Assembly: GCA_025463515.1 (NCBI GenBank)
Contig: JAODAQ010000017.1
Location: 1-36,905 of the forward strand
Length of the DNA stretch: 36,905 bases
From: Rhodoglobus sp.
Lineage (GTDB): Bacteria; Actinomycetota; Actinomycetes; Actinomycetales; Microbacteriaceae
Reading direction: 5' to 3'
Shown here: positions 7,441-27,019 of the stretch, one piece after another
Layout of the letters: every line of letters begins with the position of its first letter
Position numbering within the stretch: position 1 is the stretch's first letter
The notes under the pieces: model-generated
Seen by the model: only the letters and a program-made list of their open reading frames with translations
Told to the model about the DNA's origin: nothing
The model's database searches: none
Program-made: the position numbers and the translations under genes

Positions 7441-7836
7441 ATGCCCACAGCACTCGAGCTTGTCAACGCCCTCCTCGACGACGACGCGGTCGCCCGCTCG
7501 CTCGGCATCACGCTCGGCGCGGTCGAGGCCGGCCGGGTCGAGATCCGGATGCCCGTCGCCGCCGCCATGGTCAACGGCCACGGCCTCGTGCACGGCGGCT
7601 ACCTCTTCCTGCTCGCCGACACCGCCCTCGCCTTCTGCTGCGCGTCCCTGGACAAGCCGTCCGTCACCCGCGCTGCGGACATTGCGTTCCTCGCCCCCGC
7701 GCGGGAGCACGACACCCTCGTCGCCACGGCGGCGGTGCGGGCGGACGCGGGACGCGCCACGATCATCGACGTGCGAATCACCTCGGGCGAGACCGTGCTC
7801 GCGGAGTTCCGGGGCCATGGGGCAGCCACGCGCTGA
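7441..7836 (+). CDS. PaaI-family hotdog-fold acyl-CoA thioesterase
   Basis: A 131-residue hotdog thioesterase. The PaaI signature is clear: NGHGLVHGGYLFLLADTALAF at residues 45-65, with His51-Gly-Gly and the catalytic Asp60 on the central helix. PaaI hydrolyses ring-hydroxylated phenylacetyl-CoA in E. coli, and related hotdog enzymes hydrolyse 4-hydroxybenzoyl-CoA. With an acyl-CoA ligase, hydratase/dehydrogenase and thiolase nearby and pobA needing free 4-hydroxybenzoate, releasing an aryl-CoA product is a plausible role, but the specificity is inference. The start ATG at 7441 lies 14 bases from the divergent peroxidase start; TTCAAT at 7429-7434, six bases upstream, is a weak -10 candidate for a leaderless message. 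Confidence 0.88.
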   Translation: MPTALELVNALLDDDAVARSLGITLGAVEAGRVEIRMPVAAAMVNGHGLVHGGYLFLLADTALAFCCASLDKPSVTRAADIAFLAPAREHDTLVATAAVRADAGRATIIDVRITSGETVLAEFRGHGAATR

Positions 7837-13502: not shown

Positions 13503-13847
13503 TCACCGGCGGTCGAGCGGTGTCGAGATCGTGCGAACGAGCTCCGGCGTGACGAACCGCTCATCCAGGTGGGTCGCCAGCACGCGCACGGCGAACGGCG
13601 CGACGTCGTGCCGGATGGCGCCCGCCAAGTGGAACGGCTCGGAGTCGAGGATCGCGAGTGCAGCCTCGCGGCTCTCGGCCTCCATGACGGCGAGCGCCCC
13701 CGGCGGCCGGTCCCCCACCGCGTCGACGCCGCCGGAGAGCAGAAATGCCCCGGCCTCGAACTGCGCGGCGAGCCACGCGATGTGGGCCTCGAGCAACCCG
13801 GGCTCGGGCTCGCCGACGAACTCGCCGGTCATGACGAACAGGGGCAT
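13503..13847 (-). CDS. YciI-like protein (dimeric alpha/beta-barrel fold)
   Basis: A 114-residue protein of the YciI/YCII family. It shows the family layout: N-terminal strand MPLFVMTGEF, a helix carrying His22 in LLEAHIAWLAAQFEAG, the FLLSGGV turn, and ALAVMEAESREAALAILDSEPFHLAG in the second half. YciI-fold proteins are usually of unknown function; some act on chlorinated or hydroxylated aromatics, and His22 aligns with the residue proposed as catalytic. Its ATG follows directly on the TAG of the SnoaL-like gene upstream, so it is the last gene of the minus-strand transcript. No reaction can be assigned. Confidence 0.75.
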   Translation of the reverse strand: MPLFVMTGEFVGEPEPGLLEAHIAWLAAQFEAGAFLLSGGVDAVGDRPPGALAVMEAESREAALAILDSEPFHLAGAIRHDVAPFAVRVLATHLDERFVTPELVRTISTPLDRR

Positions 13848-14342
13848 CTAGTCCTCCAACGGTCGCGCCCAGTTCTCGGGCATTCTCAGCCTCGAGATGG
13901 TGTTCTCGGGGAATCCGGAGAGCACCTCGCCTTCCCACTTCGCGGGCTTGCGGTACTTGAAAAGCCAGTCGCCATCGACCTTCGCGAGGATGTCGTCGTA
14001 CCAGCCGGTCCAGAACAGGGTCGCGCCCGTGTCCCGCAGGGCCACCACGTGCGCGAAGGAGCGCATGCGCCAGTGCCCGCGGCGGCCCTCCGGGTCCGCA
14101 GAGAACAGCGACTGCCCGATGAGGTGCTGCCGGCCGGCGAAGAGGGCGTTGTCGTGGAATACCTGCTTGACCGCGCGCCTGATCTGGTCGCGCCCGCGGG
14201 CGAAGACGATCTCGTCGAACACCGCGTCCTCGGTGAAACAGGCAACGAATCCGTCGGTGTCGCCGGTGTCGAGCGCCCACGAGTAGCGGGCGCAGAGGTC
14301 GGCTATCGCGAAGCGGTCCTCAACCGACGGTGTCGCGCTCAC
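13848..14342 (-). CDS. SnoaL/NTF2-like protein (first copy)
   Basis: A 164-residue SnoaL-like (NTF2 fold) protein. Typical blocks: an N-terminal helix pair RFAIADLCARYSWALDTGD, the FVACFTEDAVFDE strand region near residue 35, the RGRDQIRRAVKQVF helix, GRQHLIGQ with a pocket His near 72, and HWRMRSFAHVVAL plus FWTGWYDDILAKVDGDWLFKYRK strands. Members include dehydratases, isomerases and ring-hydroxylating dioxygenase small subunits, so the fold does not give the reaction. The start GTG at 14342 overlaps the stop of the VOC gene (GTGA). A second, different SnoaL-like protein is encoded at 20828. Confidence 0.78.
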   Translation of the reverse strand: MSATPSVEDRFAIADLCARYSWALDTGDTDGFVACFTEDAVFDEIVFARGRDQIRRAVKQVFHDNALFAGRQHLIGQSLFSADPEGRRGHWRMRSFAHVVALRDTGATLFWTGWYDDILAKVDGDWLFKYRKPAKWEGEVLSGFPENTISRLRMPENWARPLED

Positions 14343-14761
14343 GCTGGCTCGACGACGTCGGGCGACGGCTTCACATAGAAGCTCACGAGATTGCCGTCCG
14401 GGTCTTCCACGAACGGGAGCTTCACGTCGACGAACGCGCCCTGCACTCCGCCATGGCGGATGCCGCGCGAATCCAGCTCGGCGGCGAGCGCCTCGACCGC
14501 CTCGCCCGAGGGCAGCCCGATGCCGAACGAGACGAACTGGCCGCGGGGCTCTCGCGACCTCGGCTCGAGCCACAGCACGAGGTTCGGGCCGCCACGGCCG
14601 TGCCGGAGCGCCGTCGCGGCGGGGCCGTCGGCGCCGGGGAAGTCGAACTCCCACTCGTATCCGAAGATGTCTTCCCAGAAGCGGCGCGACCGGGCGAGGT
14701 CGGTCACCGCCAGGCGCACGTGGTGGATGCCCGTGAGGGGGCCCGCCGGATTCCAGATCAC
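14339..14761 (-). CDS. Vicinal oxygen chelate (glyoxalase/bleomycin resistance-like) protein
   Basis: A 140-residue single VOC protein with two beta-alpha-beta-beta-beta modules: IHHVRLAVTDLARSRRFWED at the start and FVDVKLPFVEDPDGNLVSFY near the end. The first metal ligand His is present, but the Glu that normally follows DPDGN as last ligand is Ser here, so a classical metal site is doubtful. The start GTG at 14761 overlaps the stop of the ABC ATPase gene (GTGA), so it is coupled to the transporter. No substrate can be assigned; a lyase, epimerase or binding role in the same pathway is possible. Confidence 0.75.
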   Translation of the reverse strand: MIWNPAGPLTGIHHVRLAVTDLARSRRFWEDIFGYEWEFDFPGADGPAATALRHGRGGPNLVLWLEPRSREPRGQFVSFGIGLPSGEAVEALAAELDSRGIRHGGVQGAFVDVKLPFVEDPDGNLVSFYVKPSPDVVEPA

Positions 14762-15597
14762 TCCCGCGCCTCCGTCGCATCCGCCGACCCGCGAGAGCCG
14801 CGGATGAGGGCGTGCACACGGCCGCGAAGCGCGGCGAACTCGGCTGTGCTCTTGGTGCCCACCTGGTCGCGCTCGGCCCCGAGCGGGATCTCGACGATGT
14901 CGGCGACGCTCGCCGGGGAGCCGTTGAGGGCGATCACCCGATCGGACAGGTACACGGACTCGTCGATGTCGTGCGTCACGAGGACCACGGTGAGCGAGAG
15001 CTCGCGCTGCAGACGGAGCATGAGGTCCTCGAGGTCGGCGCGGGTGTACGCGTCGACCGAGGCGAACGGCTCGTCCATGAGCAGCAGAGCGGGGTTGTAC
15101 GCGAGCGCCCGGGCGATCGCCACGCGCTGCTGCATGCCGCCCGAGAGCTGCCAGGGGTACATCCCGGCCGCCACGTCGTCGAGGCCGACCAGTGTGAGCG
15201 CCCTGAGGCCCTCCTCGCGGGCTGCAGCCCGGCTCGTGCCGTTCGCCCGCAGCGGCAGGGTGACGTTGTGCAGCACCGAGGCCCACGGCATGAGCGAGCG
15301 GCTGTAGTCCTGGAAGACCAGGGCGACGCCGGGCACCGGCTCGGTGACCGGCTCGCCGGCGATCATGACGGTGCCGCTCGTGGAGGCCTGAAGGCCGGCG
15401 AGACAGCGCAGCAGGGTGGTCTTGCCCACCCCCGACGGCCCGACTATGCAGACGAACTCGCCCCGCCGGACCTCGAAGTCGATCGAGGAGAGCACGTTCC
15501 TGCCGTGGTACGCGTGCCCGAGGCCGCGGGCCGCGAGGGCGACATCCGTGTTCCCGCCCGCTGCCTGCTGCAGTTTCTTCGACCCGGTGATGGTCAT
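14758..15597 (-). CDS. ABC importer ATPase, NitT/TauT (SsuB/TauB-like) family
   Basis: A 279-residue ATPase. Walker A is GPSGVGKTT near residue 53, the Q-loop is FQDYSRSLMPW, the ABC signature is LSGGMQQR, Walker B is LLLMDEPFASVDA and the switch His is in THDIDE. The Q-loop and overall sequence resemble importers for nitrate, sulfonates, taurine and aromatic acids. The ATG at 15597 overlaps the upstream permease stop (ATGA). It should energise uptake through the two permeases encoded just upstream, with the lipoprotein at 17253-18251 as binding component. The ligand is not evident; neighbours suggest an aromatic or unsaturated carboxylate. Confidence 0.93.
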   Translation of the reverse strand: MTITGSKKLQQAAGGNTDVALAARGLGHAYHGRNVLSSIDFEVRRGEFVCIVGPSGVGKTTLLRCLAGLQASTSGTVMIAGEPVTEPVPGVALVFQDYSRSLMPWASVLHNVTLPLRANGTSRAAAREEGLRALTLVGLDDVAAGMYPWQLSGGMQQRVAIARALAYNPALLLMDEPFASVDAYTRADLEDLMLRLQRELSLTVVLVTHDIDESVYLSDRVIALNGSPASVADIVEIPLGAERDQVGTKSTAEFAALRGRVHALIRGSRGSADATEARE

Positions 15598-16388
15598 GGC
15601 TGACTCTCCAATCGTGCTTGCTGAAGCCTGTGCCAGCGCAGCACCGAGCGCTCGATGATGCGCAGGACGATGTTGAGCAGGTAGCCGAGAATTCCGAGGG
15701 CGAGGATGGCGCCCCACATGGAGCTGATCGCGAAGTTTCGCTGCGCGTTCAGGAGGAAGTAGCCGACGCCGCCGTTGCCGCCGATGGTCTCGCTCACCAC
15801 CATGATGATGAGCGCGATCGCGAGGGCGGTGCGCGCGCCGGCGAAGATCTGCGGGCTCGCACCGGGGAGCACGATCGACACAAGCCGGCGCATCCGGCCG
15901 ACGCGGAACACCCGTGAGACGTCGAGCAGGACGGGCTCGATGCCGCGCACCCCGTCGATCGTGTTGAGCAGCACCGGCCAGAACGCGCCGAACGCGATCA
16001 GAAGCACCTTCATCTGCAGGTCGATGCCGAAGAGCACGATGAAGATCGGCAGCAGGGCAACCCCCGGGATCGCCCGCAGCACCTCTAGCAAGGGACGGGT
16101 TGCCCGCTCCAGCGGCGCGACCAGCCCGAGGACGAGGCCGAGCACGATGCCGGTCACCACGGCGAGCAGATAGCCGAGAGCCAGCAGCTGGAGGCTGGGC
16201 ACCAGGTTCTTCGGCAGGGCCGCGGGGTCCAGCCAGTCGTGGGCGAAGGACCCGAGGATCGACGAGAGCGGCGGGAAGTACACGGAGGTGCTGTTGGCGC
16301 TGGCGAACCACCAGACGACGACCAGCACTATGGGGAGCCAGATCTCGAGGCCGATGGTGCGCGCGACTCGCGCTGTCGAGGGGGTCAT
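15594..16388 (-). CDS. ABC importer permease (SsuC/TauC-like), second permease
   Basis: A 264-residue inner-membrane permease with about six membrane segments (LEIWLPIVLVVVWWF first). The cytoplasmic EAA loop that contacts the ATPase is visible as VFRVGRMRRLVSIVLPGASPQ followed by GARTALAIAL. Its ATG at 16388 overlaps the stop of the upstream permease gene, and its stop overlaps the ATPase start. Two different permease genes suggest a heterodimeric channel rather than the homodimer of SsuC. It belongs to the same cluster as the ligase and MaoC hydratase. Confidence 0.92.
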   Translation of the reverse strand: MTPSTARVARTIGLEIWLPIVLVVVWWFASANSTSVYFPPLSSILGSFAHDWLDPAALPKNLVPSLQLLALGYLLAVVTGIVLGLVLGLVAPLERATRPLLEVLRAIPGVALLPIFIVLFGIDLQMKVLLIAFGAFWPVLLNTIDGVRGIEPVLLDVSRVFRVGRMRRLVSIVLPGASPQIFAGARTALAIALIIMVVSETIGGNGGVGYFLLNAQRNFAISSMWGAILALGILGYLLNIVLRIIERSVLRWHRLQQARLESQP

Positions 16389-17218
16389 CGTGCACTCTCC
16401 TTGCGGTTGGAGGCGTGCCAGCGCAGGAGATAGCGCTGCGCCGACCAGAATCCGCCGTTGACCAGCAGGCCGAGCACCGCGGAGACGAGCACGTACGCGT
16501 ACATCCGCGGGGTGTCGAGCGAGAGCTGGGCATCCTGAATCTGGAAGCCGATGCCGGGAGCACCGCTGAGAAGCTCCCCGGTGATCGTGAGGAGCAGGCA
16601 GATCGTCGTGCCCACCCGTAGGCCGGTCATGACGAACGGGAGGGATCCGGGGAAGAACACGTGGGTGACGAACCATCGACGGGGTACCCGGAACGACGCT
16701 GACATCTCCGCCAACAGCGACTCCCCCTGTCGGGCCGCGTAGACCGATTGGATGAGGATCGGCCAGATCGCTCCGAGCACGACGACGACGAGCACCATCT
16801 CGAAAGTCGGGCCGTAGATCAGCAGCACCAGGGGGAGGATCGCGATCGGCGGGATCGTGCGGAGGAAGTCGAACACCAGCCGGGTGCTCTGGGTGGCGAT
16901 CCTGCTCCACCCGATCGCGAGGCCGACGGGAACGCCCACCACCGTGCAGATCAGCAGGCCGGCGGCGAACGTGAGCAGGGTCTGGCCGACGGCATCCCAG
17001 AAGCCTCCGGTGAGGGCCAGCTGGCCCATGCGCGCGAGGGTCTCGACGGGGCTCGGCATCGTGGCCTCGGGCAGGGTCGCCGAGGCGAACCACCACAGCA
17101 GGAGGGCGAGCACGATGACGCCCGCCTGCGTGGCGAGTCTCAGGAGGCGCCCGGTGCGCTGTGGCACCGGGCGCGGCAGCGCGCCAGTCGTGCTCGTCGA
17201 GAGCGTGTTGCTCGTCAT
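16385..17218 (-). CDS. ABC importer permease (SsuC/TauC-like), first permease
   Basis: A 277-residue permease. Membrane segments begin at AGVIVLALLLWWFASATL (residues 33-50). The EAA loop reads SFRVPRRWFVTHVFFPGSLP then VMTGLRVGTTICLLL. It differs clearly from the second permease, so the pair is not a recent duplication. A strong ribosome-binding site GGAGGAGG lies about nine bases before the ATG at 17218. The gap to the binding-protein gene upstream is 34 bases, consistent with one transcript. Confidence 0.92.
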   Translation of the reverse strand: MTSNTLSTSTTGALPRPVPQRTGRLLRLATQAGVIVLALLLWWFASATLPEATMPSPVETLARMGQLALTGGFWDAVGQTLLTFAAGLLICTVVGVPVGLAIGWSRIATQSTRLVFDFLRTIPPIAILPLVLLIYGPTFEMVLVVVVLGAIWPILIQSVYAARQGESLLAEMSASFRVPRRWFVTHVFFPGSLPFVMTGLRVGTTICLLLTITGELLSGAPGIGFQIQDAQLSLDTPRMYAYVLVSAVLGLLVNGGFWSAQRYLLRWHASNRKESAR

Positions 17219-17252
17219 GGCTCGCTACCTCCTCCTGTGGACCGGCTGGTTG

Positions 17253-18251
17253 TTACGGGGCGTACAGGACGTCCGCGCCCTTCGGCGCCTGCGCCTTGTC
17301 GAGCGAGCCGTACTTCTCCAAGAGGGCGATGAACGTGTCGATCTCGTCGGCAGTGATCGCCGTCTCTCCGAAGAGCGGCAGCGCCGACTTCTCAAGAAGG
17401 GCCGGATCGACCGTGGTCGACGTCTTGGCAGTCTCCCGCACGGCATCCGGGTTCGCGTTCGCGAAGGCGTTCGCCTTCAGGATCGCGCTCGTGAACTGGG
17501 CGACGACCTCGGGGTTCGCGTCGGCGAAGGTCTTCGACGCCACGAAGACGAATGTCGGAAGGCCCGGCACCGTGGTCTCCTCCGGATTGAAGATGTACTT
17601 GAATCCCATTCCCTTGGCGATGCTGACCAGGGGCTCGCCGAGCACTGCTGCGTCGATCTGCCCGGACTGCAGGGCGGGGATCGCCTCGGGCGGTGCGATC
17701 TCGACGAACTGGACCTTGTCGACGTCGCCGCCGTCCTTGATGATCGACGCGCGCGTCAGCACCTCGGCGGTGCCGCCCAGCTGGTTGACCTGCACCTTCT
17801 TTCCCTCGAGGTCCTTCGGGCGCGTGATGCCGGAGTCGGCGCCGGCCACGATGCCCGCGTAGCCCACCGCGTCGCCTATACCGGCGGTGTTGGGGGCGAT
17901 CGTGACGATTCCCACATTCTGCTGGGTCGCGCTGATGGCGGTCGCCATGTCGACAGTCGCGAAGGTGAGGTCGCCCTTGAGCAGCAGCGGGATCGCGTCA
18001 GACCCTGCCGTCAGGATCGAGGTCGTGGCGGTGAGGCTCTCCTCGTCGAAGAACCCCTCGGAGATTCCGAGGAAGATGTCGGCGTTCGAGAGCTGGCCGC
18101 CGGTGCCGATGACGATGTCGGCGGCAACAGGGCCGGACGACACGGGGTCGGTGGTGGCAGCGGGTTCGGGCGTACTGCAGCCGGCCAGTGTTGCGCCGGC
18201 GAGGGCGAGGCCGGCGACGATGCCGGATGCTCGGATGATGGCCTTGCTCAT
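17253..18251 (-). CDS. ABC importer substrate-binding lipoprotein (NMT1/SsuA-like)
   Basis: A 332-residue secreted lipoprotein. The signal peptide ends in the lipobox LAGC with Cys25 as the lipidated residue, followed by a low-complexity linker of Pro, Ala, Thr and Ser. The mature part has the NMT1/SsuA layout: early strand IVIGTGGQLSNADIFLGISEGFF, hinge region LEGKKVQVNQLGGTAEVL, and AIPALQSGQIDAAVLGEPLV typical of this class. It would capture the ligand outside the membrane and deliver it to the two permeases. AAAGGAG lies about nine bases before the ATG. Position between the MaoC gene and permeases ties uptake to CoA-dependent breakdown. Confidence 0.93.
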   Translation of the reverse strand: MSKAIIRASGIVAGLALAGATLAGCSTPEPAATTDPVSSGPVAADIVIGTGGQLSNADIFLGISEGFFDEESLTATTSILTAGSDAIPLLLKGDLTFATVDMATAISATQQNVGIVTIAPNTAGIGDAVGYAGIVAGADSGITRPKDLEGKKVQVNQLGGTAEVLTRASIIKDGGDVDKVQFVEIAPPEAIPALQSGQIDAAVLGEPLVSIAKGMGFKYIFNPEETTVPGLPTFVFVASKTFADANPEVVAQFTSAILKANAFANANPDAVRETAKTSTTVDPALLEKSALPLFGETAITADEIDTFIALLEKYGSLDKAQAPKGADVLYAP

Positions 18252-18309
18252 GACAGAAGCACTCCTTTGGGTTCGATTGTCGGTGCGAGGTGGTGCGTGT
18301 GTCGAGGAA

Positions 18310-19179
18310 TCATTCCGCGACTTCTACGAGCCCGTCCGACAGGCACAGGGTGCCGTCGGCGAGAGCGGTCTCGAAGCTGTAGAGGGAATGCCCGTTCTCG
18401 GACGTTCCTGCGCGATAGACGCGCGTGGTGATGGTGTCGTAGGGGGTCACCCAGCGGCTGAAGCGGATGGCGAGGCGCTTGAGGCGCCGGCTGTCGTTGT
18501 CGGCGGTGTGCGCGAGCACAGTGCGGGTCGCGAAGGCGAAAGTGCAGTTGCCGTGCAGGATGATGCCCGGGAACCCGAACTGGCGCGCGAACGTGTTGTC
18601 GGAGTGCAGCGGCATCGTGTCGCCCGAGGCGCCCATGTAGCGGAAGCTCTGGTCGGGATCGAAGGTCTCGGTGATCTCGATGAGCGGCTCGGCGTCGCGC
18701 ACGTACTCGCGGGTGGGCGGCTCCTCGCCCAAGGCCTCGGGCGCAATGGCGGTACGGATGAACACCGTCACGTACTGGTCGACGACGGGCTCGCCCTCCT
18801 TCGTCGTCGTCTCCCCGCGGACAGTGATGAGCGAGCCCGTCGAGCGCGGAGTGATGCCCACGGGCATGGCGCGCGTGACGAGCGTCATGCCCGCCTCGAT
18901 CGGCCGGTGGAACCGGAAGTCCTGCTCGCCGTGCAGGCCCATCATCCGCTTCTGCGCCGGCGGCATGTCCATCGTGAGCGGGGCGATCACCTGGAAGGCG
19001 GGCACCACGTTGAACACGGGGCTCGCGAAGTCTCCCGACAGGTGGGATGCCACGGAGTCGTTGGTCGCTCGCGCGTACGCCTGCAGGCGCTCACGGTCGA
19101 CGACGAACTCGACAGGCTCGCTCCACTTGCCCAGGGGCTCCGTATCGAACTCGTCGGGCACGGTGTCGGTGATGGTCAT
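18310..19179 (-). CDS. MaoC-like double-hotdog dehydratase/enoyl-CoA hydratase
   Basis: A 289-residue protein with two hotdog modules. The N-terminal module carries VDRERLQAYARATND. The C-terminal module carries the hydratase-2 motif GASGDTMPLHSD...FARQFGFPGIILHG, in which the Asp and the two His regions form the catalytic site for reversible hydration of trans-2-enoyl-CoA to an R-3-hydroxyacyl-CoA. It has its own promoter with a TetR-like palindrome (19195-19222) and GGAG before the ATG. It heads the transcript for the ABC importer, VOC, SnoaL and YciI genes. The natural substrate would be a CoA ester made by the ligase encoded just upstream. Confidence 0.86.
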   Translation of the reverse strand: MTITDTVPDEFDTEPLGKWSEPVEFVVDRERLQAYARATNDSVASHLSGDFASPVFNVVPAFQVIAPLTMDMPPAQKRMMGLHGEQDFRFHRPIEAGMTLVTRAMPVGITPRSTGSLITVRGETTTKEGEPVVDQYVTVFIRTAIAPEALGEEPPTREYVRDAEPLIEITETFDPDQSFRYMGASGDTMPLHSDNTFARQFGFPGIILHGNCTFAFATRTVLAHTADNDSRRLKRLAIRFSRWVTPYDTITTRVYRAGTSENGHSLYSFETALADGTLCLSDGLVEVAE

Positions 19180-19194
19180 ATTCTCTTCTCCAAC

Positions 19195-19222
19195 TTGATA
19201 ACGATCGTTAGTTTTTTGTCAC
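19195..19222 (-). promoter_or_regulatory. Promoter of the MaoC-ABC transcript with a TetR-type palindrome
   Basis: On the minus strand GTGACA (19217-19222) and TATCAA (19195-19200) are 16 bases apart. Between and touching the -10 box lies the perfect 12-bp palindrome TAACGATCGTTA (19199-19210), the style of operator bound by TetR-family repressors. A protein bound there would block the promoter. No TetR gene lies in the window. The 80-base gap around it, 19180-19259, is otherwise empty. Confidence 0.55.
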
Positions 19223-19259
19223 ACGTTGTGAGCAGCGCTCAGCGCCGCGGTGCCCACGA

Positions 19260-20831
19260 TCAGGCCCCGCTGACCTCGCGCTCGCGGTCTCCCTGCGGCC
19301 AGTAGGCCTCCCGGAGCACGCGACGCGGCAGCTTGCCGAGCTCGTTGCGGGGCAGTGCATCCACCCGGAACACGATGTCGGTGGGCTTCTTCATCGAGCC
19401 GATCTCGGTGCGGCACAGTTCCATGAGCTCCTGCGCGCCGACGGTCTGGCCCGCTCGCAGCACCACGACAGCGTGAGGGGTCTCGCCCCACTTCGCATGC
19501 GCCACGCCCACGACCGCGGCATCAGCCACCGCCGGATGCTTGAGGAGCGCGTTCTCGATCTCCGCGGGCCAGATGTTGAACCCGCCCGAGATGATCATGT
19601 CGTCCTTGCGGTCGACCACGAACAGGAACCCGTCGTCGTCGAGGTAGCCGATGTCGTTGCTGCGCACGAAGCCGTCCGGCGTGATCCGCTGGGCAGTGGC
19701 GGCCTCGTCGCGGTAGATGCCGCGCATCCGTCCCTCTGTCGAGATCAGGATCTCGCCGACGCTGCCCGCGGGCAGGGCCGAGCCGTCCTCGCCCTCGATC
19801 CGTACGCGCGCATTGAGGCAGACCCGGCCGGCCGACTGCAGGACGCGGTAGTCGCCGGCAGCACCGCGCGCATGATCCTCCGGCGTGAGGCAGGTCACCG
19901 GCAGGCACTCGCTCTGGCCGTAGGTCTGGAACAGCACGTCGCCGAACACCCCCTGCGCCAACCGCGCGGTAGCCACCGAGATCGGGGCGCTCGCGTACAC
20001 GATCGCCCGCAGGCTGGAGAGATCGAAGGATGCAGCATCGGGATGATCGGCGAGGGCCTGGAGCATCGTCGGCACGACGAACGTGATGGTGCAGCGCTCG
20101 GACTCGATGAGCTGCAGTGCGGCGCGGGCGTCGAAGTGATCGAGGATCCGGATGCTCGCCCCACGGCCCACGAGGAGGTAGAGCACGGTCGACGCCGCGT
20201 GGGTGAGCGGGGCCGCCGCAAGATAGACGTCGCTCGAGGTGATCCGCGGCAGGAACATGGCGTGGTCGGCGGTGACTATCGACCAGCTGTGCTGCGTGTG
20301 CACCGAGGCGCGCGGCAGGCCGCTCGACCCCGAGGAGAAGGCGAGGTGCACGATGTCGTCGGCTGCGACCGGGACACGCGCGTCGGTCGGCTCCGCCGCG
20401 GCCAGCATCGTCTCGTAGTCGACGAGCGCCGCCTCGTCCGGGGCGCCCTGCACTATGACGAGCTCTAGGCTCGCAACCGCGGCGAGCTCGGCGCGGAACC
20501 GGTCGTAGAACTCGCCGGTCGTGATGAGCACGCGGGCACCCGCCGCATCGAGTACCTGTCGGTGGGTGTCGCCGGTGCCCATGCCGTGCAGTGCGGTGCG
20601 GTTGTAGCCGCCGAGGGCGAGCCCCAGCATTAGTTCGAGCGTCGTCGCGTCGTTGTGGGCGAGTGTCGCGACCCGGTCGCCCACCACGATGCCCCGCTCG
20701 CGCAGCGCGTTGACGAGTCGGAAGGAGCGATCGGCGACCTGGTCGTAGGTCCAGCGGCGGTCGCCGTGGACTATCGCGAGCTTCGACCCGTGGTCGGCGA
20801 AAGCGCGGCGGACGAGCTCGGCGATGATCAT
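19260..20831 (-). CDS. AMP-dependent acyl/aryl-CoA ligase
   Basis: A 523-residue member of the ANL superfamily that would activate a carboxylic acid to its CoA thioester through an acyl-AMP. Visible core motifs: A3 phosphate loop AFSSGSSGLPRASVHT near residue 170 (Arg where Lys is usual), A5 QTYGQSE near 310, A7/A8 NDIGYLDDDGFLFVVDRKDDMIISGGFNIWP near 400-430, and the catalytic Lys in NELGKLPRRVLRE near 505. Closest in style to short/medium-chain or aromatic acid ligases (cinnamate, benzoate or cyclohexane carboxylate types). The ATG at 20831 overlaps the stop of the SnoaL gene (ATGA). It may make the CoA ester sensed by the PaaX-type regulator nearby; substrate unknown. Confidence 0.9.
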   Translation of the reverse strand: MIIAELVRRAFADHGSKLAIVHGDRRWTYDQVADRSFRLVNALRERGIVVGDRVATLAHNDATTLELMLGLALGGYNRTALHGMGTGDTHRQVLDAAGARVLITTGEFYDRFRAELAAVASLELVIVQGAPDEAALVDYETMLAAAEPTDARVPVAADDIVHLAFSSGSSGLPRASVHTQHSWSIVTADHAMFLPRITSSDVYLAAAPLTHAASTVLYLLVGRGASIRILDHFDARAALQLIESERCTITFVVPTMLQALADHPDAASFDLSSLRAIVYASAPISVATARLAQGVFGDVLFQTYGQSECLPVTCLTPEDHARGAAGDYRVLQSAGRVCLNARVRIEGEDGSALPAGSVGEILISTEGRMRGIYRDEAATAQRITPDGFVRSNDIGYLDDDGFLFVVDRKDDMIISGGFNIWPAEIENALLKHPAVADAAVVGVAHAKWGETPHAVVVLRAGQTVGAQELMELCRTEIGSMKKPTDIVFRVDALPRNELGKLPRRVLREAYWPQGDREREVSGA

Positions 20832-21295
20832 GAGGCGGCGCTCCCCTTGTCATCGTCGTGAACAGGGCGCACCACGCGGAATTTCATTCTGGAGAACTTC
20901 CAGCTGCCATCGGAGTCGCGGCGGTAGGTGCAGTCATAGCGCCCCTCCTCCCAGACTCCCGCCTCCGGTACGGCACTGTTGAGGCGATGCCACGTCCACA
21001 CTCCGGTCGCCTCATCGCCGACGACGGTGATCACCGGCGCCGTGACGAGATAGCTTGCGCCGTCGAGCGGGGCGTCGACCATGTGGGAGAAGTGCTCCGA
21101 GATCGCGGCCTTGCCGGTCTTGACCCCGTGGGAGCGCATGTCGATCACGGCGTCGTCGGTGAAGTAGTCCGCCAGTGAGTCGAACTGGCGCGACGTGAGG
21201 ACTCGCACGTAGACGTTGTGCATCCGCTCGATGTCGTCGCGCGATTCGAGTGCGGCGACCCTGCGCTCGAGTGCGTCGAACTGCTGCTCGTCCAC
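20828..21295 (-). CDS. SnoaL/NTF2-like protein (second copy)
   Basis: A 155-residue SnoaL-like protein, first gene of the ligase transcript. Blocks: a predicted N-terminal coiled helix DALERRVAALESRDDIERM, then MHNVYVRVLTSRQFDSLADYFTDDAVIDM, the TGKAAISEHFSHMV helix, and the strands ATGVWTWHRL and YDCTYRRDSDGSWKFSRMKFRVV. I chose GTG at 21295, five bases after AAAGGAG; a directly preceding GTG at 21298 is too close and an ATG far upstream at 21385 would run through the promoter. The fold includes dehydratases and isomerases such as scytalone dehydratase, BaiE and LinA. Coupled translation with the ligase suggests action on the same compound. Confidence 0.78.
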   Translation of the reverse strand: MDEQQFDALERRVAALESRDDIERMHNVYVRVLTSRQFDSLADYFTDDAVIDMRSHGVKTGKAAISEHFSHMVDAPLDGASYLVTAPVITVVGDEATGVWTWHRLNSAVPEAGVWEEGRYDCTYRRDSDGSWKFSRMKFRVVRPVHDDDKGSAAS

Positions 21296-21369
21296 CACGG
21301 CTCCTTTGCCTGAGATCCCCGTACGACCGGGGTGCCTCGACGATACGCCGTCAAGGCTGAAGTGCTGCC

Positions 21370-21399
21370 AACGTACTACAACCACACCACGATCGTCAA
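21370..21399 (-). promoter_or_regulatory. Candidate promoter of the SnoaL-ligase transcript
   Basis: On the minus strand TTGACG (21394-21399) and TACGTT (21370-21375) are 18 bases apart, giving a leader of roughly 65-70 bases to GTG 21295. The operator-like GTGCGTATTAC word at 21402-21412 lies just upstream of the -35 box, so a regulator there could affect both this promoter and that of the divergent PaaX gene. Confidence 0.45.
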
Positions 21400-21401
21400 A
21401 T

Positions 21402-21413
21402 GTGCGTATTACG
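21402..21413. promoter_or_regulatory. Operator-like word GTGCGTATTAC in the PaaX divergent region
   Basis: GTGCGTATTAC at 21402-21412 contains the odd-centred palindrome CGTA-T-TACG (21405-21413). A near-identical word, GTGTGTAATAC, overlaps the -10 box of the hydratase/dehydrogenase operon at 22333-22343. The two agree in nine of eleven positions and flank the PaaX-family gene. The rest of the 160-base divergent gap 21296-21455 holds the minus-strand promoter and a possible -10 box TAATCT (21443-21448) seven bases before the PaaX ATG. Confidence 0.45.
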
Positions 21414-21455
21414 TTTTTCTACCCTCGATTTCTCCCTGCGTGTAATCTTCGGATC

Positions 21456-22292
21456 ATGACCACGTCGAACGCAGCGAGCCCGGCCGCCACCCGGCGGACG
21501 AAGACGCTCCTGCTCACCGTGCTCGGCGATGCGGTAATCCCGCTCGGCGGGTCGGTCTGGCAGGAGACGCTCGTGCGGGCGCTCACCACACTCGGGGCGA
21601 GCGTGCCCGCAGCCCGTCAGGCCGTGGCCCGGGCCGTCGGCGACGGCTGGCTCACGAGCGTGCGCACCGGGCGGCGCGCGCGCATGACGATGACCGACGA
21701 GACCATCCGCGGCATTCGCGAAGGGCGGGAGCGCACCCTGGCGTTCGGGCAGTCGCGCGAGTGGCACGGCGACTGGCTGTTCGTCGCGCTCACCGTCCCG
21801 GAGGAGAGCCGCGCACTGCGCTACCACTTCCGTACCGAGTTGGCGTGGCTTGGATTCGGCTCGCTCGGCAACGGTCTCTGGATCTCCCCGCACCCCGAGA
21901 ACGAGGCGGCGACGCAGCGCCTTCTGCGGTCGTCCGACAGCCCTGGGGATGCGTACGTGTTCACTGGCGCCCGCCCGGCCAGTCACACCCCGGAGCAGAT
22001 CGCATCGGCCGCCTGGGACATGGAGAGCCTGCGCGAGCGGTACACCGACTTCCTCTCCCGGTTCGAGAGTGCCGTACCCCGAGACCCCGCCCAGTACTTC
22101 ACGAGCTGGGTCGAGCTCGTCACGAGCTGGCGGCACTTCCCGCTCTTCGACCCCGAGCTGCCCGAGCGCCTGCTTCCCGCCGACTGGCCGCGCGTCGAGG
22201 CGTACCGGCTGTACCACCAACTGACCAGCGAGTGGACGGCCCCTGCTCTCGAGTTCTTCCGCGCCCTCGAGGTCGAGGTGACCACGAACTGA
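21456..22292 (+). CDS. PaaX-family transcriptional regulator
   Basis: A 278-residue regulator of the PaaX family. The N-terminal winged helix (TKTLLLTVLGDAVIPLGG, then VPAARQAVARAVGDGWLTSVRTGRRARMTM) occupies about residues 15-75. The central Cas2-like ferredoxin domain has WHGDWLFVALTVPEESRALRYHFRTELAWLGFGSLGNGLWISPHP, and the C-terminal helical part ends in the LPERLLPADWPRVEAYRLYHQL block typical of the family. PaaX proteins repress until an aryl-CoA such as phenylacetyl-CoA binds. I chose ATG at 21456; TAATCT seven bases upstream suggests a leaderless message. Position between the ligase transcript and the beta-oxidation operon points to control of both by the CoA ester formed by the ligase. 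Confidence 0.92.
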   Translation: MTTSNAASPAATRRTKTLLLTVLGDAVIPLGGSVWQETLVRALTTLGASVPAARQAVARAVGDGWLTSVRTGRRARMTMTDETIRGIREGRERTLAFGQSREWHGDWLFVALTVPEESRALRYHFRTELAWLGFGSLGNGLWISPHPENEAATQRLLRSSDSPGDAYVFTGARPASHTPEQIASAAWDMESLRERYTDFLSRFESAVPRDPAQYFTSWVELVTSWRHFPLFDPELPERLLPADWPRVEAYRLYHQLTSEWTAPALEFFRALEVEVTTN

Positions 22293-22312
22293 CAGCGCTT
22301 GATGTTTGACAC

Positions 22313-22344
22313 TTGCGTGATGATCGCAATGAGTGTGTAATACA
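22313..22344 (+). promoter_or_regulatory. Candidate promoter and operator of the hydratase-thiolase-ALDH operon
   Basis: TTGCGT (22313-22318) and TGTAAT (22336-22341) are 17 bases apart. The -10 box lies inside the word GTGTGTAATAC (22333-22343), related to the one at 21402, and inside the odd-centred palindrome TGTA-A-TACA (22336-22344). A PaaX-type repressor bound here would block the promoter. The start at 22379 has GAGGAG seven bases upstream, so the leader is about 30 bases. Confidence 0.5.
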
Positions 22345-22378
22345 TCTCGACAACGTCCGTCAGCTCGAGGAGTCTCGC

Positions 22379-24376
22379 ATGCCCACTGGGTCGCCCGTCA
22401 GCACCGACCGCATCGGCGACGTCGTCGTGCTCATCCTGCAGAACCCACCGGTGAACACCCTCGCGCAGCCCGTGCGCGAGGCCCTCTACCGGGAGCTCGA
22501 AGCCGCAGACCTCGACGGCTCCGTCGCCGCCGTCGTCATCGCCGGCGGGAAGCAGTTCAGCGCAGGGGCCGATCTCGCCGAGTTCGACTCCGGGCAGGCC
22601 CTCGCGCATCCCACCCTCCACGGCGAGCTCGCCGGCCTGCTCGACTCACTCCGTGTGCCCTCGGTCGCCGCGATCACGGGAGTCGCTCTGGGCGGCGGGC
22701 TCGAACTGGCGCTCGCCTGCAGCGCTCGCGTCGCCTCGCCCACCGCGACCGTCGGCCTGCCCGAGACGACGCTCGGCTTCATGCCCGGCGCAGGCGGAAC
22801 GCAGCGGCTCCCCCGCGCGGTCGGGATCGAGCGCGCCGTGAACCTGATCGCGTCGGGCAGGAGCATCGACGCCACGACTGCCGCAGAGTGGGGACTCGTC
22901 GACGAGGTCGCCGACGATCCGATCGCGGCAGCTGTGCGACACGCAGAGCGGCTCGCCACCGCGGGCGAGCGGCCACGTCTGCGCGATCTCCCGGTCTCCG
23001 ACTCCGCGGCCGCAGCCTTCGTCGACATTGCGCTGCGGGATGCCCGTCGCGCACGCCGCGCACCGGGCGTCCTCTTCGCCCTCGAAGCAGTCGGAGCCTC
23101 GGCGACGCTGCCCTTCGACGAGGGCATGGCTCTCGAGTTCACACTCTTCGAGCGACTCGCGCGGACGCCCGAGGCGAAGGCCGCGCGCTATCGCTTCCTG
23201 TCCGACCGGGCCGGGGGCAAGCCGAGTACGACGGTCGCCATGCCCGCGAGTGTCGCCGTCGTCGGGGCCGGGACGATGGGGCGCGGGATCGCGCAGGCAT
23301 TCCTCGCGGCGGGCATCCCGACGACCCTCATCGACACGGATCGCGGGAGGGTCGACGCCGGCGCCGGCGCAATCCGCTCCTCGCTCGACGACTCCGTCGC
23401 CCGCGGGCGACTGGCGCCCGACCAGCGCGACGCTCGGTCTGCGCTGCTGAGTGCCGCCGTGGGCCTGGACTCTGCGGCCGGAGCAGACCTCGTGATCGAG
23501 GCGGTGTTCGAGAACCTCGCGGTGAAGCTCGAGGTGTTCCGCGAGCTGGACCGCGTGGCCGGGCCCGACGCCGTGCTGGCCTCGAACACCTCCTCGCTCG
23601 ACGTGGATGTGATCGCCGGCGCGACGAGCCGCCCCGGGTCGGTCGTCGGCATGCACTTCTTCAGCCCTGCGCACATCATGAAGCTCGTCGAGGTGGTCGA
23701 TGGTGCTGCGACGACCACGCGCAGCCTCGACACGGCCATCGCCGTGGCCCGGAAACTCGGGAAGACGCCCGTCGTCTCGAGAGTCGGCCCCGGCTTCATC
23801 GGCAACCGCATCTTCGACCAGTACCTGCGGCAGGCGGTGCTCCTCCTCCAGTCCGGATGCACTCCGCTCCAGGTCGACGAGGCCATGCAGGCTTGGGGCA
23901 TGGCCATGGGCCCGTTCGCCGTGCTCGACCTCGTCGGCAACGACGTCGCCTGGGCGGCCCGCAAGGAGCGCGGTGAGACGGATGCCGCGTGGGCGCCGGC
24001 CGACGCGTTGTGCGAGCTCGGGTGGTTCGGCCGCAAGACGGGCAAGGGCTGGTACGACTATCCGGCCGGATCCCCCAATACCGACCTCGCCCTGCCGGAC
24101 GGCCCCGGCCTCGCCGCCGACGATATCGCGCTGCGCTGCATCCTCGCCATGGTGAACGAGGCCGCTGCCGTGCTCGCGGACGGCATCGCCGCCTCGACCC
24201 GCGACATCGACACGGTCATCACCAAGGGCTACGGCTTCCCGGGCGCCCGCGGCGGGCCGTGGTTCTTCGCCGAACAACTCGGGTGGGGTCGCGTGACCGC
24301 GATCATGCGCAGGTTCGCCGAGGAGACCGGCGACGCGTTCTGGCAGCCGAGCACCGCTCTGGGGGCACAGTCATGA
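22379..24376 (+). CDS. Bifunctional enoyl-CoA hydratase / 3-hydroxyacyl-CoA dehydrogenase
   Basis: A 665-residue multifunctional beta-oxidation enzyme. The N-terminal crotonase domain (to about 190) has the oxyanion region [24 protein letters not shown] and [20 protein letters not shown], with both catalytic Glu residues kept. The dehydrogenase part from about 285 has the Rossmann motif [28 protein letters not shown], catalytic His in [17 protein letters not shown], and two C-terminal 3HCDH helical repeats. Architecture resembles peroxisomal-type or FadB/FadJ-like enzymes without a thiolase subunit. I chose ATG 22379 with GAGGAG upstream over an earlier ATG at 22313, which would lie inside the promoter. 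The stop overlaps the thiolase start (ATGA). Expected role: hydrate and oxidise an acyl-CoA made by the nearby ligase. Confidence 0.93.
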
Positions 24377-25551
24377 GATCTGCAGTCATCGTCTCAACGG
24401 CGCGCACGCCGCTCACCCCGTCGTGGTCGGGAGGCCTCAACCTCACCCACCCGGCGACGATGGCGGGCCACGTCATCTCGGCGGCCATCGAGCGCGCTGG
24501 GGTCGACCCCGGCCGCATCGACGATGTGATCCTCGGCTGCGCCAACGGCGAGGGCGCCAACGGCAGCAACATCGCGCGGCTCGGCGCCCTGCGCGCGGGG
24601 CTCCCGGTCTCGACCGCGGGGACGACAGTCAATAGGTTCTGCGCCTCGGGCCTCGAAGCGATCGCCCTCGCCGCCCAGCGCGTCATGACCGGTCAGTACG
24701 AGGTCGCGGTCGCGGGCGGCGTGGAGTCGATCGGGCTCGTGCAGGAGCACCTCAACGGCTTCATGGCCGAGGACCCGTGGCTGCGCGCGAACGTGCCCTC
24801 GATCTACCTGCCGATGCTGCAGACCGCGGAGGTCGTCGCCGACCGGTACTCGATCTCTCGTGAGCGGCAGGACGAGTACGGCCTCCAGAGCCAGTTGCGC
24901 TCGGCCGCCGCCGCCGAGGCAGGGCGGTTCGACCGCGAGCTCGCGCCGCTCTCCACCCGCGCGGCCCTGCTCGACCGGGCGTCAGGTGACCGGTCGATAG
25001 TGGATGTCACGGTGTCGGCTGATGAGGGCATCCGGGCCGATTCGACCCTCGAGGGGCTCGCGCGCATCCGTCCGGCGCTTCCGGGCGGAACGGTCTCGGC
25101 GGGGAACGCGAGCGGATTCTCCGACGGCGCCTCGGCCTGCGTCGTGATGAGCGAGGAGGAGGCCGAGCGCCAGGGACTCGAGATCCTCGGCAGGTTCGTG
25201 TCCTATGCGGTCTCGGGCTGCGAGCCCGACGAGATGGGGATCGGCCCGGTCTTCGCGGTGCCGAAGCTCCTCGAGCGCGCCGGGCTCGGCGTCGACGACA
25301 TCGACCTCTGGGAGCTCAACGAGGCCTACGCCGTGCAGGTGCTGTACTGCCGTGACCGCCTCGGCATCGACAACTCTGTCCTCAATGTCGACGGCGGCTC
25401 GATCGCCATGGGCCACCCGTACGGCATGTCCGGGGCGCGGCTCGCGGGGCACGCCCTCGTCGAGGGCCAGCGCCGCGGCGCCCGACGGGTGGTCATCACG
25501 ATGTGCATCGGCGGCGGCCAGGGTGCCGCCGCACTCTTCGAAGTCAACTAG
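24373..25551 (+). CDS. Thiolase (acetyl-CoA C-acyltransferase), substrate unassigned
   Basis: A 392-residue thiolase. Catalytic elements are complete: acyl-accepting Cys90 in [18 protein letters not shown] near 315, catalytic His in [17 protein letters not shown], and the C-terminal CIGGGQG with the proton-shuttling Cys. The usual GGxExMS block reads GGVESIG, and the loop region is divergent from PcaF and from standard FadA, suggesting a bulky or unusual 3-oxoacyl-CoA. Its start overlaps the hydratase/dehydrogenase stop, so the two act in sequence: oxidation to a 3-oxoacyl-CoA, then cleavage to acetyl-CoA and a shortened acyl- or aroyl-CoA. Confidence 0.92.
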
Positions 25552-25564
25552 AAGGAGACAGACG

Positions 25565-27019
25565 ATGACGTTTCTCACCGATACCTGGAGCGGCTCCCTC
25601 TACTCGGGCACCTGGAAGGCCGGGTCCGCCGGCGTCGCTGACGTGATCGAGCCCGCGACCGGCGGCACACTCGGCTCGATCGGCGTCGCGGGTGTCGAGG
25701 ATGTGCACGCGGCAGCGGTCGCCGCATCCCGCGCCCAGCGGGACTGGGCCCGCCGTCTGCCTGAGGAGCGCGCGGCAGTTCTTCGCAGAGCGGGGCTGCT
25801 CTTCCAAGAGCACGCCGCCGAGATCGAGGGCTGGATCATCCGGGAGACCGGTGCGATCGGCGGCAAGGCCGCGCTCGAGACCCACATTGCCGCGAACGAG
25901 TGCTTCGAGGCGTCCGCCCTGCCCTCGTTCCCGCACGGGGACGTGCTGCCGTCGAATGAGGCGCGCTGGTCGTTCGCCCGCAGGATGCCCGCCGGCGTGG
26001 TGGGCGTCATCGCCCCGTTCAACTTTCCGCTGATCCTCGCCATCAGGGCCGTGGCTCCGGCGCTCGCTCTCGGAAACGCCGTACTGCTCAAGCCCGACCT
26101 CCGCACGGCGGTCTCGGGCGGGGTGGCCATCGCGCGGATCTTCGTGGAGGCCGGGCTGCCTGACGGCCTGCTTCATCTCCTGCCCGGCGGAGTAGACGTC
26201 GGGGAGGCCGTAGTCTCGGCGCCCGAGGTACGCATCATCGCCTTCACGGGATCGACCGGAGCCGGCCGCGCCGTAGGCGCGCTCGCCGCGCAGCACCTCA
26301 AGCGCGTGCACCTCGAACTCGGCGGCAACAACGCACTCGTCGTGCTGCCCGGGGCCGACCTCGCGCTCGCGGCATCGGCGGGAGCGTTCGGCTCGTTCAT
26401 GCACCAGGGCCAGATCTGCATGTCGACCGGCCGCCACCTCGTGCACGAGAGCCTGTTCGAGAGCTACGTCGACGCGCTCGCGGAGAAGGCCGCGCACCTC
26501 CCCGTGGGCGACCCGGCGAGCGGCCAGGTCGCCATCGGCCCGATCATCGACCAGCGCCAGCTCGACCGCATCGAGTCGATCGTGCAGCGCACGGTGCAGC
26601 AGGGCGGGCGGCTTGCGGCGGGCGGGACATCCACGGGGCTCTTCTACGCGCCTACGGTGATGACCGGTCTCGATTCGACGATGCCGGCCTGGGCAGAGGA
26701 GGTCTTCGGGCCGGTCGCGCCGGTGCGCCCGTTCTCGAGCGTGAGCGAGGCCGCGAGCCTCGCCGCGGAGAACGACTACGGCCTCTCCCTCGGCATCCTC
26801 GGCGACGTCGGCCTCGCGATGGACCTCGCGGACCTGGTGCCGAGCGGCAAGATCCACATCAACGAGCAGACGGTGTCAGACGAGGCCAACGCGCCCTTCG
26901 GGGGCGTCGGGTGGTCGGGCAACGGATCGCGCATCGGCGGCCTCGAGACGAACCTCGACGCGTTCACGGACGTCCAGTGGCTCACGATGAGATCGACCAT
27001 CGCACCGTACCCGTTCTGA
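25565..27019 (+). CDS. Aldehyde dehydrogenase, benzaldehyde/vanillin dehydrogenase-like
   Basis: A 484-residue NAD(P)-dependent aldehyde dehydrogenase. Motifs: GVIAPFNFPLILAIRAVAPALALGNAVLLKPD near residue 145, FTGSTGAGRAVG near 225, general base Glu251 in LELGGNNALV and catalytic Cys285 in HQGQICMSTGR. The HQGQICM context is typical of benzaldehyde, vanillin and salicylaldehyde dehydrogenases (XylC/Vdh-like). A clear AAGGAG precedes the ATG at 25565, and the thiolase stop is 13 bases upstream, so it closes the operon. An aryl aldehyde would arise if the side chain is removed by retro-aldol cleavage instead of thiolysis. Its stop abuts the convergent pcaJ stop with no base between. Confidence 0.9.
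   Translation: MTFLTDTWSGSLYSGTWKAGSAGVADVIEPATGGTLGSIGVAGVEDVHAAAVAASRAQRDWARRLPEERAAVLRRAGLLFQEHAAEIEGWIIRETGAIGGKAALETHIAANECFEASALPSFPHGDVLPSNEARWSFARRMPAGVVGVIAPFNFPLILAIRAVAPALALGNAVLLKPDLRTAVSGGVAIARIFVEAGLPDGLLHLLPGGVDVGEAVVSAPEVRIIAFTGSTGAGRAVGALAAQHLKRVHLELGGNNALVVLPGADLALAASAGAFGSFMHQGQICMSTGRHLVHESLFESYVDALAEKAAHLPVGDPASGQVAIGPIIDQRQLDRIESIVQRTVQQGGRLAAGGTSTGLFYAPTVMTGLDSTMPAWAEEVFGPVAPVRPFSSVSEAASLAAENDYGLSLGILGDVGLAMDLADLVPSGKIHINEQTVSDEANAPFGGVGWSGNGSRIGGLETNLDAFTDVQWLTMRSTIAPYPF

Follow-up and report, generated by a model that had tools for sequence, protein, structure and literature searches.

The DNA analysed here, hereafter the window, is a stretch of 36,905 nucleotides from a soil actinobacterium, Rhodoglobus sp. 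(contig JAODAQ010000017.1 of assembly GCA_025463515.1) and is the entire contig C12 of an assembly of 3.3 Mb in 78 contigs (~95% complete, contamination 4%). At positions 13503..27019 it carries a putative degradation module with its own importer, in which all fourteen genes proposed in an earlier sequence-only reading were present with intact frames in Pfam searches, although the program-made starts of several open reading frames were overlong. Ten of the genes form a minus-strand operon, transcribed in the order of a SnoaL_4 / NTF2-like protein (SnoaL1), a coenzyme A (CoA) ligase, a MaoC hydratase, the binding lipoprotein, permease 2, permease 1 and ATPase of an ATP-binding cassette (ABC) importer, a VOC protein, a second SnoaL_4 / NTF2-like protein (SnoaL2) and a YciI-like protein, while the plus-strand block consists of paaX, a FadB-type fusion, a thiolase and an aldehyde dehydrogenase (ALDH). 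Adjacent genes overlap by 4 bases in 6 of the 13 pairs, including SnoaL1 and the ligase.

The proteins were assigned to families by Pfam and NCBIfam profile searches. The ligase (19260..20831, minus strand, 523 aa, AMP-binding 5.3e-61) is of the AMP-forming acyl/aryl-CoA type, a family membership that bears out the proposed CoA activation at the level of sequence, and its nearest solved structures were FadD8, followed by fatty-acyl/feruloyl-CoA synthetases and 4-coumarate:CoA ligase. The enoyl-CoA hydratase (18310..19179, minus strand, 289 aa) has the two-domain MaoC architecture of the hydratase-2 type (FAS1_DH + MaoC), and D187 and H192, which we take to be the catalytic Asp/His motif of that class, were invariant in an alignment of eight sequences. 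On the plus strand, the FadB-like protein (22379..24376, 665 aa; ECH_1, 3HCDH_N, 3HCDH) scored below the cut-offs of the FadJ/FadB models, and the thiolase (24373..25551, 392 aa) was recognised as an acyl-CoA C-acetyltransferase (NF005494, 636.2 bits, cut-off 615). The sequence-only reading had listed two types of hydratase and a hydroxyacyl-CoA dehydrogenase; these activities are all represented, but the dehydrogenase and one of the hydratases are a single fused protein. None of the fourteen genes encodes an acyl-CoA dehydrogenase. The importer parts are complete and of the NMT1/SsuA type, comprising a substrate-binding lipoprotein (17253..18251; NMT1 2e-27, with a lipobox-like LAGC), permease 2 (16385..17218; BPD_transp_1 6.3e-19), permease 1 (15594..16388; BPD_transp_1 1.7e-23) and an ATPase (14758..15597; ABC_tran 5.2e-29), all on the minus strand. 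Specific NCBIfam models remained below their cut-offs, both for the lipoprotein (SsuA_fam 103.8 bits, cut-off 163.5) and for the ATPase, whose nearest models were nitrate/taurine/sulfonate types.

The distribution of the module was analysed in 299 genomes of the family with thresholds of E 1e-30 for the hydratase, 1e-110 for the ligase and 1e-90 for FadB. The hydratase was found in three genomes and the ligase in the same three. FadB was found in six; the four matches at 55% identity or more fell in those three genomes and in G113 (77% complete), where a short contig carries paaX-fadB-thiolase-ALDH, and the two matches at 42% identity (G141 and G276) were set aside. The figure for this joint presence is 9e-07 when FadB is counted in four genomes and ~4.5e-06, calculated by hand, when G141 and G276 are included, neither being a clean probability; G042 and G170 share one genus. 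An order-wide sample gave 1 of 297 (the window's own genome) and a phylum-wide sample 35 of 396, the latter all at 46% identity or less except the own genome. Among the best 80 of 316 relatives in a scan of named genomes, five formed a close group with 74-81% identity, carried by four metagenome-assembled genomes (MAGs), one of Subtercola (L049) and three actinobacterial (L051, L052, which is the same as L010, and L053), and by Galbitalea soli, whose locus L050 coincides with L009. The other 75 comprised Frankia QA3 at 52% and 74 relatives at 41-48%. At the threshold applied, Frankia QA3 (L054) has the hydratase and the ALDH and no further module gene, and three distant hydratases inspected by eye (L061, L094 and L101) lie in a different context, with thiolase/lipid-transfer-like, SRPBCC, short-chain dehydrogenase/reductase (SDR) and acyl-CoA dehydrogenase genes. 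Hydratases of the module's family also occurred in two records labelled as a Bifidobacterium breve MAG (L055 and L092), which is unexpected for the genus, and the records are possibly mislabelled.

Seven loci were compared, namely the window, L008 (contig C22 of the own genome), L009, L010, L049, L051 and L053. All seven contain the hydratase and the whole importer (binding protein, two permeases and ATPase), as well as the ligase, which is fragmentary in L051 and L053. The two blocks adjoin in all three loci that could be assessed (L009, L049 and L051), with rearrangements in two: YciI is relocated beside fadB in L009, and the fadB block stands on the far side of the importer genes in L049. 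In L051 the middle is missing (SnoaL1, paaX and parts of the ligase and fadB). In L008, L010 and L053 the contigs end too early for adjacency to be judged, and in the genome of L010 (G170) fadB-thiolase-ALDH lie on a separate 4-kb contig. Separation of the blocks in relatives, which had been named beforehand as the observation that would speak against their association, was thus not seen in any assessable locus; the minus- and plus-strand blocks are one unit. Because related sets exist in six other loci and the genes occur jointly in the same family genomes, the module is more than a chance assembly. FadB residue 263 and ligase residue 414 are immediate neighbours at the junction in L051 (8379-9965), owing to a deletion or an assembly collapse.

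Besides the module, the own genome contains a second, diverged importer-ligase-hydratase block (L008, 1216-9724; hydratase 86% and ligase 68% identical) with two SnoaL1-like genes and a contig end that falls within PaaX. Ligases and hydratases of the module kind are each encoded twice in this genome and such a FadB once, so the second copy either shares FadB or comes from another strain, given the contamination of 4%. Galbitalea soli NBRC 108727 holds 13 of the 14 module genes, SnoaL2 not being seen there. A second PaaX-ligase-enoyl-hydratase-SnoaL set adjoins its first module (L009, 14835-19806, and L047, 1-6058), with an acyl-CoA dehydrogenase and, by eye, a LIV-type ABC transporter. Among plasmid records, searches within the E-value limits returned one match for the hydratase, four for the ligase, two for the binding protein and two for SnoaL2, and none of the four annotated plasmid regions viewed held a copy of the module.

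The regulator (21456..22292, plus strand, 278 aa, start ATG at 21456) belongs to the PaaX family, its PaaX, PaaX_M and PaaX_C domains (PF07848, PF20803 and PF08223) all scoring over the cut-offs. It does not qualify as the PaaX equivalog of the phenylacetate (paa) pathway (TIGR02277, 152 bits, cut-off 264.55), and the PaaA epoxidase is not in the module; within the own genome it exceeded its cut-off only on contig C21. The divergent control region (21371..21414) contains GTAGTACGT and TGACGATCGT (21389-21398) on the minus strand and GTATTACGT on the plus strand, the fadB promoter region (22337..22362) contains GTAATACAT on the plus strand and TGACGGACGT on the minus strand (22353-22362), and the palindrome TAACGATCGTTA between ligase and hydratase (19199..19210) is a possible third operator. 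The promoter of SnoaL1 and the ligase is conserved: the window, L008 and L009 share TTGACGATCGT followed by a GTAGTAC-like element, and L010 and L049 carry variants of it. MeqR2, a PaaX-type regulator of Arthrobacter Rue61a, reportedly has the operator TGACGNNCGTcA and the effector anthraniloyl-CoA. We take the conserved TTGACGATCGT block to match that operator, and TGACGNNCGT to be a PaaX-type operator, a motif that was brought in only once the conserved block had been seen.

Exact TGACGNNCGT occurred once each in 8 of 18 gaps (2,685 bases; 0.16 expected, with a background of 106 per 1.77 Mb in the other fetched loci, mostly coding), the gaps being hand-chosen, several of them mutually homologous, one from another PaaX system and one a contig end. 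Two of the eight were the control regions of the window. Three were divergent gaps (L008, L009 and L010), two lay between ligase and hydratase (L008 and L009), and one lay between SnoaL and fadB (L049); the ligase-hydratase gap of L010 and the gap before the binding protein in L053 had no exact match. Over the whole window the motif showed no enrichment, its 4 occurrences comparing with an expectation of 2.83 and being equalled or exceeded in 33 of 100 shuffles, and two overlapping exact matches lay within the hydratase gene (18876-18887). The broader pattern GTRNTACRT is no test, because it was built from the sites that it then found. The operator-like sites shared across the control regions nevertheless argue for a single control unit serving both strands, as had been proposed. 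E. coli PaaX is reported to be released by phenylacetyl-CoA (PMC9493321) and the MarR regulator CouR by p-coumaroyl-CoA (PMC4737184). Since both are freed by aryl-CoA esters, the inducer of the module PaaX is likely, by analogy, an aryl-CoA ester, in agreement with the earlier suggestion.

The four small proteins had been taken as a sign of additional ring or side-chain chemistry. Their occurrence weakens that view: YciI was found in 5 of the 7 loci, VOC in 4 and SnoaL2 in 2 (beyond the window only in L049), with some of the absences possibly stemming from contig ends (L051 and L010). These three of the four are therefore not constant parts and offer little support for additional chemistry on the ring. 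SnoaL1 (20828..21295, minus strand, SnoaL_4 1.4e-19, start inferred) alone looks core, being present in all five loci where neither a gap nor a contig end falls at its place, and relocated in L049. Its predicted model, made from five sequences, has the NTF2 fold with a mean pLDDT (predicted local distance difference test) of 79.6. In a Foldseek search with this model, entries for LdpA, described as a C-C cleaving deformylase (PMC12997858), took ranks 3-7 and 10, the NTF2 fold being generic, and LdpA was absent among the 50 VIA-align rows listed.

In profile searches the top match of SnoaL1 was BaiE (E 1.6e-06), which brings in a rival substrate class. The substrate of the module might be a hydroxylated acid of alicyclic or terpenoid-like structure, the SnoaL proteins dehydrating its CoA ester as BaiE does with bile acids, MaoC hydrating it, and FadB and thiolase degrading the opened chain. 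SnoaL2 (13848..14342, minus strand, 164 aa, SnoaL_4 5e-21) carries DTGD and QHLIG, presumably the stretches expected of SnoaL_4 Asp/His dehydratases, and on a Variovorax sp. SRS16 plasmid (L129, 8986-13071) three NTF2-like genes and a CaiB/BaiF CoA-transferase come after a ligase with 42% identity. However, the Asp/His pair that we take to be typical of BaiE and LinA was not aligned in SnoaL1 in the alignment with BaiE, SnoaL2 is present in two of the seven loci, and the aryl-ALDH and pobA/pca neighbours described below favour an aromatic product, so we consider this explanation unlikely. The VOC protein (14339..14761, minus strand, 140 aa, Glyoxalase 1.1e-09), assigned also by alignment and fold search, was considered as a methylmalonyl-CoA-type epimerase bridging (R)- and (S)-branches. 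This was ruled out, as only the first His of the three metal ligands, which we assume from FosA, was retained in four aligned sequences. The YciI-like protein (13503..13847, minus strand, 114 aa, YCII 1.3e-07) was likewise rejected as a TftG-like dehydrochlorinase, the nearest solved structure, TftG, reaching only E 0.045.

The ALDH (25565..27019, plus strand, 484 aa, Aldedh 6.2e-132) had 4-hydroxybenzaldehyde dehydrogenase as its nearest solved structure (4.9e-97), followed by benzaldehyde, salicylaldehyde and vanillin dehydrogenases. It is common in the family (44 of 299 genomes at E 1e-110), and 20 neighbourhoods of relatives were fetched, 17 of them seen whole. Relatives stand beside pobA in L164 and L173 and beside pca genes in L164 and L179, and one (L167) adjoins a benzoylformate decarboxylase-like gene (491.7 bits, cut-off 493); several other neighbourhoods (e.g., L161-L163, L165, L166, L169 and L175) offered no such pointer. 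The nearest structures and these neighbourhoods place it in an aryl-aldehyde clade, in agreement with the earlier reading as an aryl-type enzyme, and lend reasonable support to an aromatic aldehyde as the substrate. Two further neighbourhoods add to this evidence: in G080 (L177, 1968-9444) a lignostilbene dioxygenase-like gene (563.3 bits, cut-off 800) accompanies a related importer and an aryl-ALDH, and in G234 of the same family (L168, 3991-9617) SDR, amidohydrolase, MaoC, ligase and aryl-ALDH genes stand in a row that looks like a cou-type hydroxycinnamate cluster. A split PaaZ made of MaoC and ALDH was rejected, as the ALDH is nearest to benzaldehyde-type enzymes and PaaZ was not among the best 25 of 40 NCBIfam matches. 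In the own genome, the model for hydroxycinnamoyl-CoA hydratase-lyase (HCHL), NF006588, gave five matches, the best with 148 bits (cut-off 276) in an assembly ~95% complete; the HCHL that the Fcs/Ech non-beta-oxidative route requires was therefore not found there.

The module lies among other aromatic genes. To its left are pca genes (by eye), a hot-dog thioesterase of the PaaI type (7441..7836, plus strand, 4HBT 1.7e-10; TIGR02286 101 bits, cut-off 118.9), a possible helper outside the module, and a set of hpa genes for the meta-cleavage of homoprotocatechuate, of which HpaD and HpaE passed their cut-offs. On its right, pcaJI and pobA exceeded subfamily cut-offs and a pcaF-like thiolase fell below its own. 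The same pobA/pca neighbours were seen by eye in L051, and the suggested feed into pobA/pca is plausible. The hpa genes offer another destination, in which the product would be a C6-C2 compound (hydroxyphenylacetyl-CoA or homoprotocatechuate), the thioesterase freeing the acid and PaaX sensing an arylacetyl-CoA. The hpa cluster lies within 7 kb of the module in the window and, by eye, near it in L010, L053 and Galbitalea (L046/L009), and beside the hydratase-ALDH of Frankia QA3; the thioesterase recurs in L049 and, by eye, in L009 and L010. On the other hand, hpa is also found near this ALDH in module-free genomes (L167, L168, L172 and L174); it may therefore mark an aromatic island of a general kind, which weakens it as a pointer to the product. 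In addition, C6-C1 enzymes are the closest to the ALDH, and a C4 side chain, presumably uncommon in plants, would be required. A C6-C2 product thus appears rather improbable. The FadB, thiolase and FadD8-like ligase families would also suit a conventional beta-oxidation set for fatty acids or aryl-fatty acids that had borrowed its importer; the PaaX regulator, the aryl-ALDH, the rarity of the set in the family (3 of 299 genomes) and the aromatic island setting all speak against this, and we regard it as very unlikely.

Taken at about even odds (a probability of roughly 0.5), the module serves the import and side-chain shortening of an unsaturated aromatic acid, hydroxycinnamate-like or a longer aryl-alkenoic acid; the substrate class, the order of reactions and the inducer are each what we infer. 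The acid is probably unsaturated already, because no acyl-CoA dehydrogenase is in the module. It would be taken up by the lipoprotein-permease-ATPase set and converted by the ligase into its CoA ester, which would also be the likely signal that removes PaaX from the promoters. The hydratase, FadB-type fusion and thiolase would then remove two carbons from the side chain at each turn. An aryl aldehyde, either released by C-C cleavage or brought in with the substrate, would be oxidised by the ALDH, and the resulting hydroxybenzoate would be degraded through pobA and pca via protocatechuate.

The best reading of this chemistry is a PaaX-regulated, ABC-fed variant of the known CoA-dependent shortening of aryl-alkenoate side chains (cou/phd/pip type). 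The hydratase and 3-hydroxyacyl-CoA dehydrogenase that such pathways need are supplied by the MaoC hydratase and the ECH-3HCDH fusion, and for the last cleavage, which calls for a thiolase or an amidohydrolase of the CouO type, the module has the thiolase; among the seven loci viewed, an amidohydrolase adjoins the module in L051 only. In the cou system of Rhodococcus jostii RHA1, p-hydroxycinnamates are reported to pass through hydroxybenzoates to protocatechuate and beta-ketoadipate, with a CoA ligase, side-chain beta-oxidation and a regulator released by an aryl-CoA ester (PMC4737184), features that the module would share. However, cou is described with CouR and the amidohydrolase CouO (PMC4737184), whereas the module has PaaX, the FadB-type fusion and thiolase, and adds the ABC importer and the NTF2, VOC and YciI proteins. 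The pip system of Rhodococcus ruber No. 14 reportedly uses a ligase and three enzymes to convert piperic acid through 3,4-methylenedioxycinnamic acid to piperonylic acid, and PipV, W and X are described as lacking significant similarity to the trifunctional fatty-acid complex (PMC12753220), whereas the module uses the FadB and thiolase families. It further resembles the phd system of Corynebacterium glutamicum, described as CoA-dependent beta-oxidative deacetylation of phenylpropanoids (PMC12125101), and quinaldine catabolism in Arthrobacter Rue61a, whose control is reported to involve two PaaX-related regulators in an aromatic-CoA pathway (PMC3534580), although substrate and enzymes differ from the latter. 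The module would work in the manner of cou, phd and pip, under a different regulator and with different enzymes for the cleavage. The claim of an undescribed pathway is reduced accordingly to that of a variant. Among the papers listed in literature searches, which cover few subscription journals, none was seen to describe such a cluster.

Several observations weigh against this interpretation. Hydratase-2 enzymes make (R)-hydroxyacyl-CoA and FadB acts on the (S) form, so that, given the opposite stereochemistry of their classes, the MaoC hydratase and FadB probably serve different steps, and a single linear beta-oxidation leaves one of the two hydratases unaccounted for. The thiolase yields aroyl-CoA and no HCHL exceeded its cut-off, so the ALDH needs another source of aldehyde. 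The top-scoring structure for the ligase is FadD8. Exact TGACGNNCGT is missing from 10 of the 18 gaps, including PaaX-ligase in L049, fadB in L009 and PaaX-fadB in G113. Finally, hpa adjoins the module in more loci (the window, L010, L053 and L046 beside L009) than pob/pca (the window and L051), and with this adjacency a C6-C2 product is possible.

An aryl aldehyde might instead be released without a cofactor, through the ligase, (R)-hydration by MaoC, retro-aldol cleavage by SnoaL1 in place of HCHL, and the aryl-ALDH, with FadB and thiolase first shortening longer side chains. We hold this route to be improbable, and SnoaL1, on the strength of its predicted model, to be a candidate lyase.

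If side-chain shortening of an unsaturated aromatic acid is indeed the role of the module, the bacterial routes for breaking down plant phenylpropenoid acids would gain a branch that is fed by an ABC importer and regulated by PaaX, and there would be a possible explanation of how such acids can be dealt with in a Microbacteriaceae genome that has no recognisable HCHL. The compact set of importer, ligase, two hydratases and one NTF2 protein is also a setting for a possible new C-C lyase, and Galbitalea soli NBRC 108727, as a named isolate with 13 of the 14 genes, makes its study practical.

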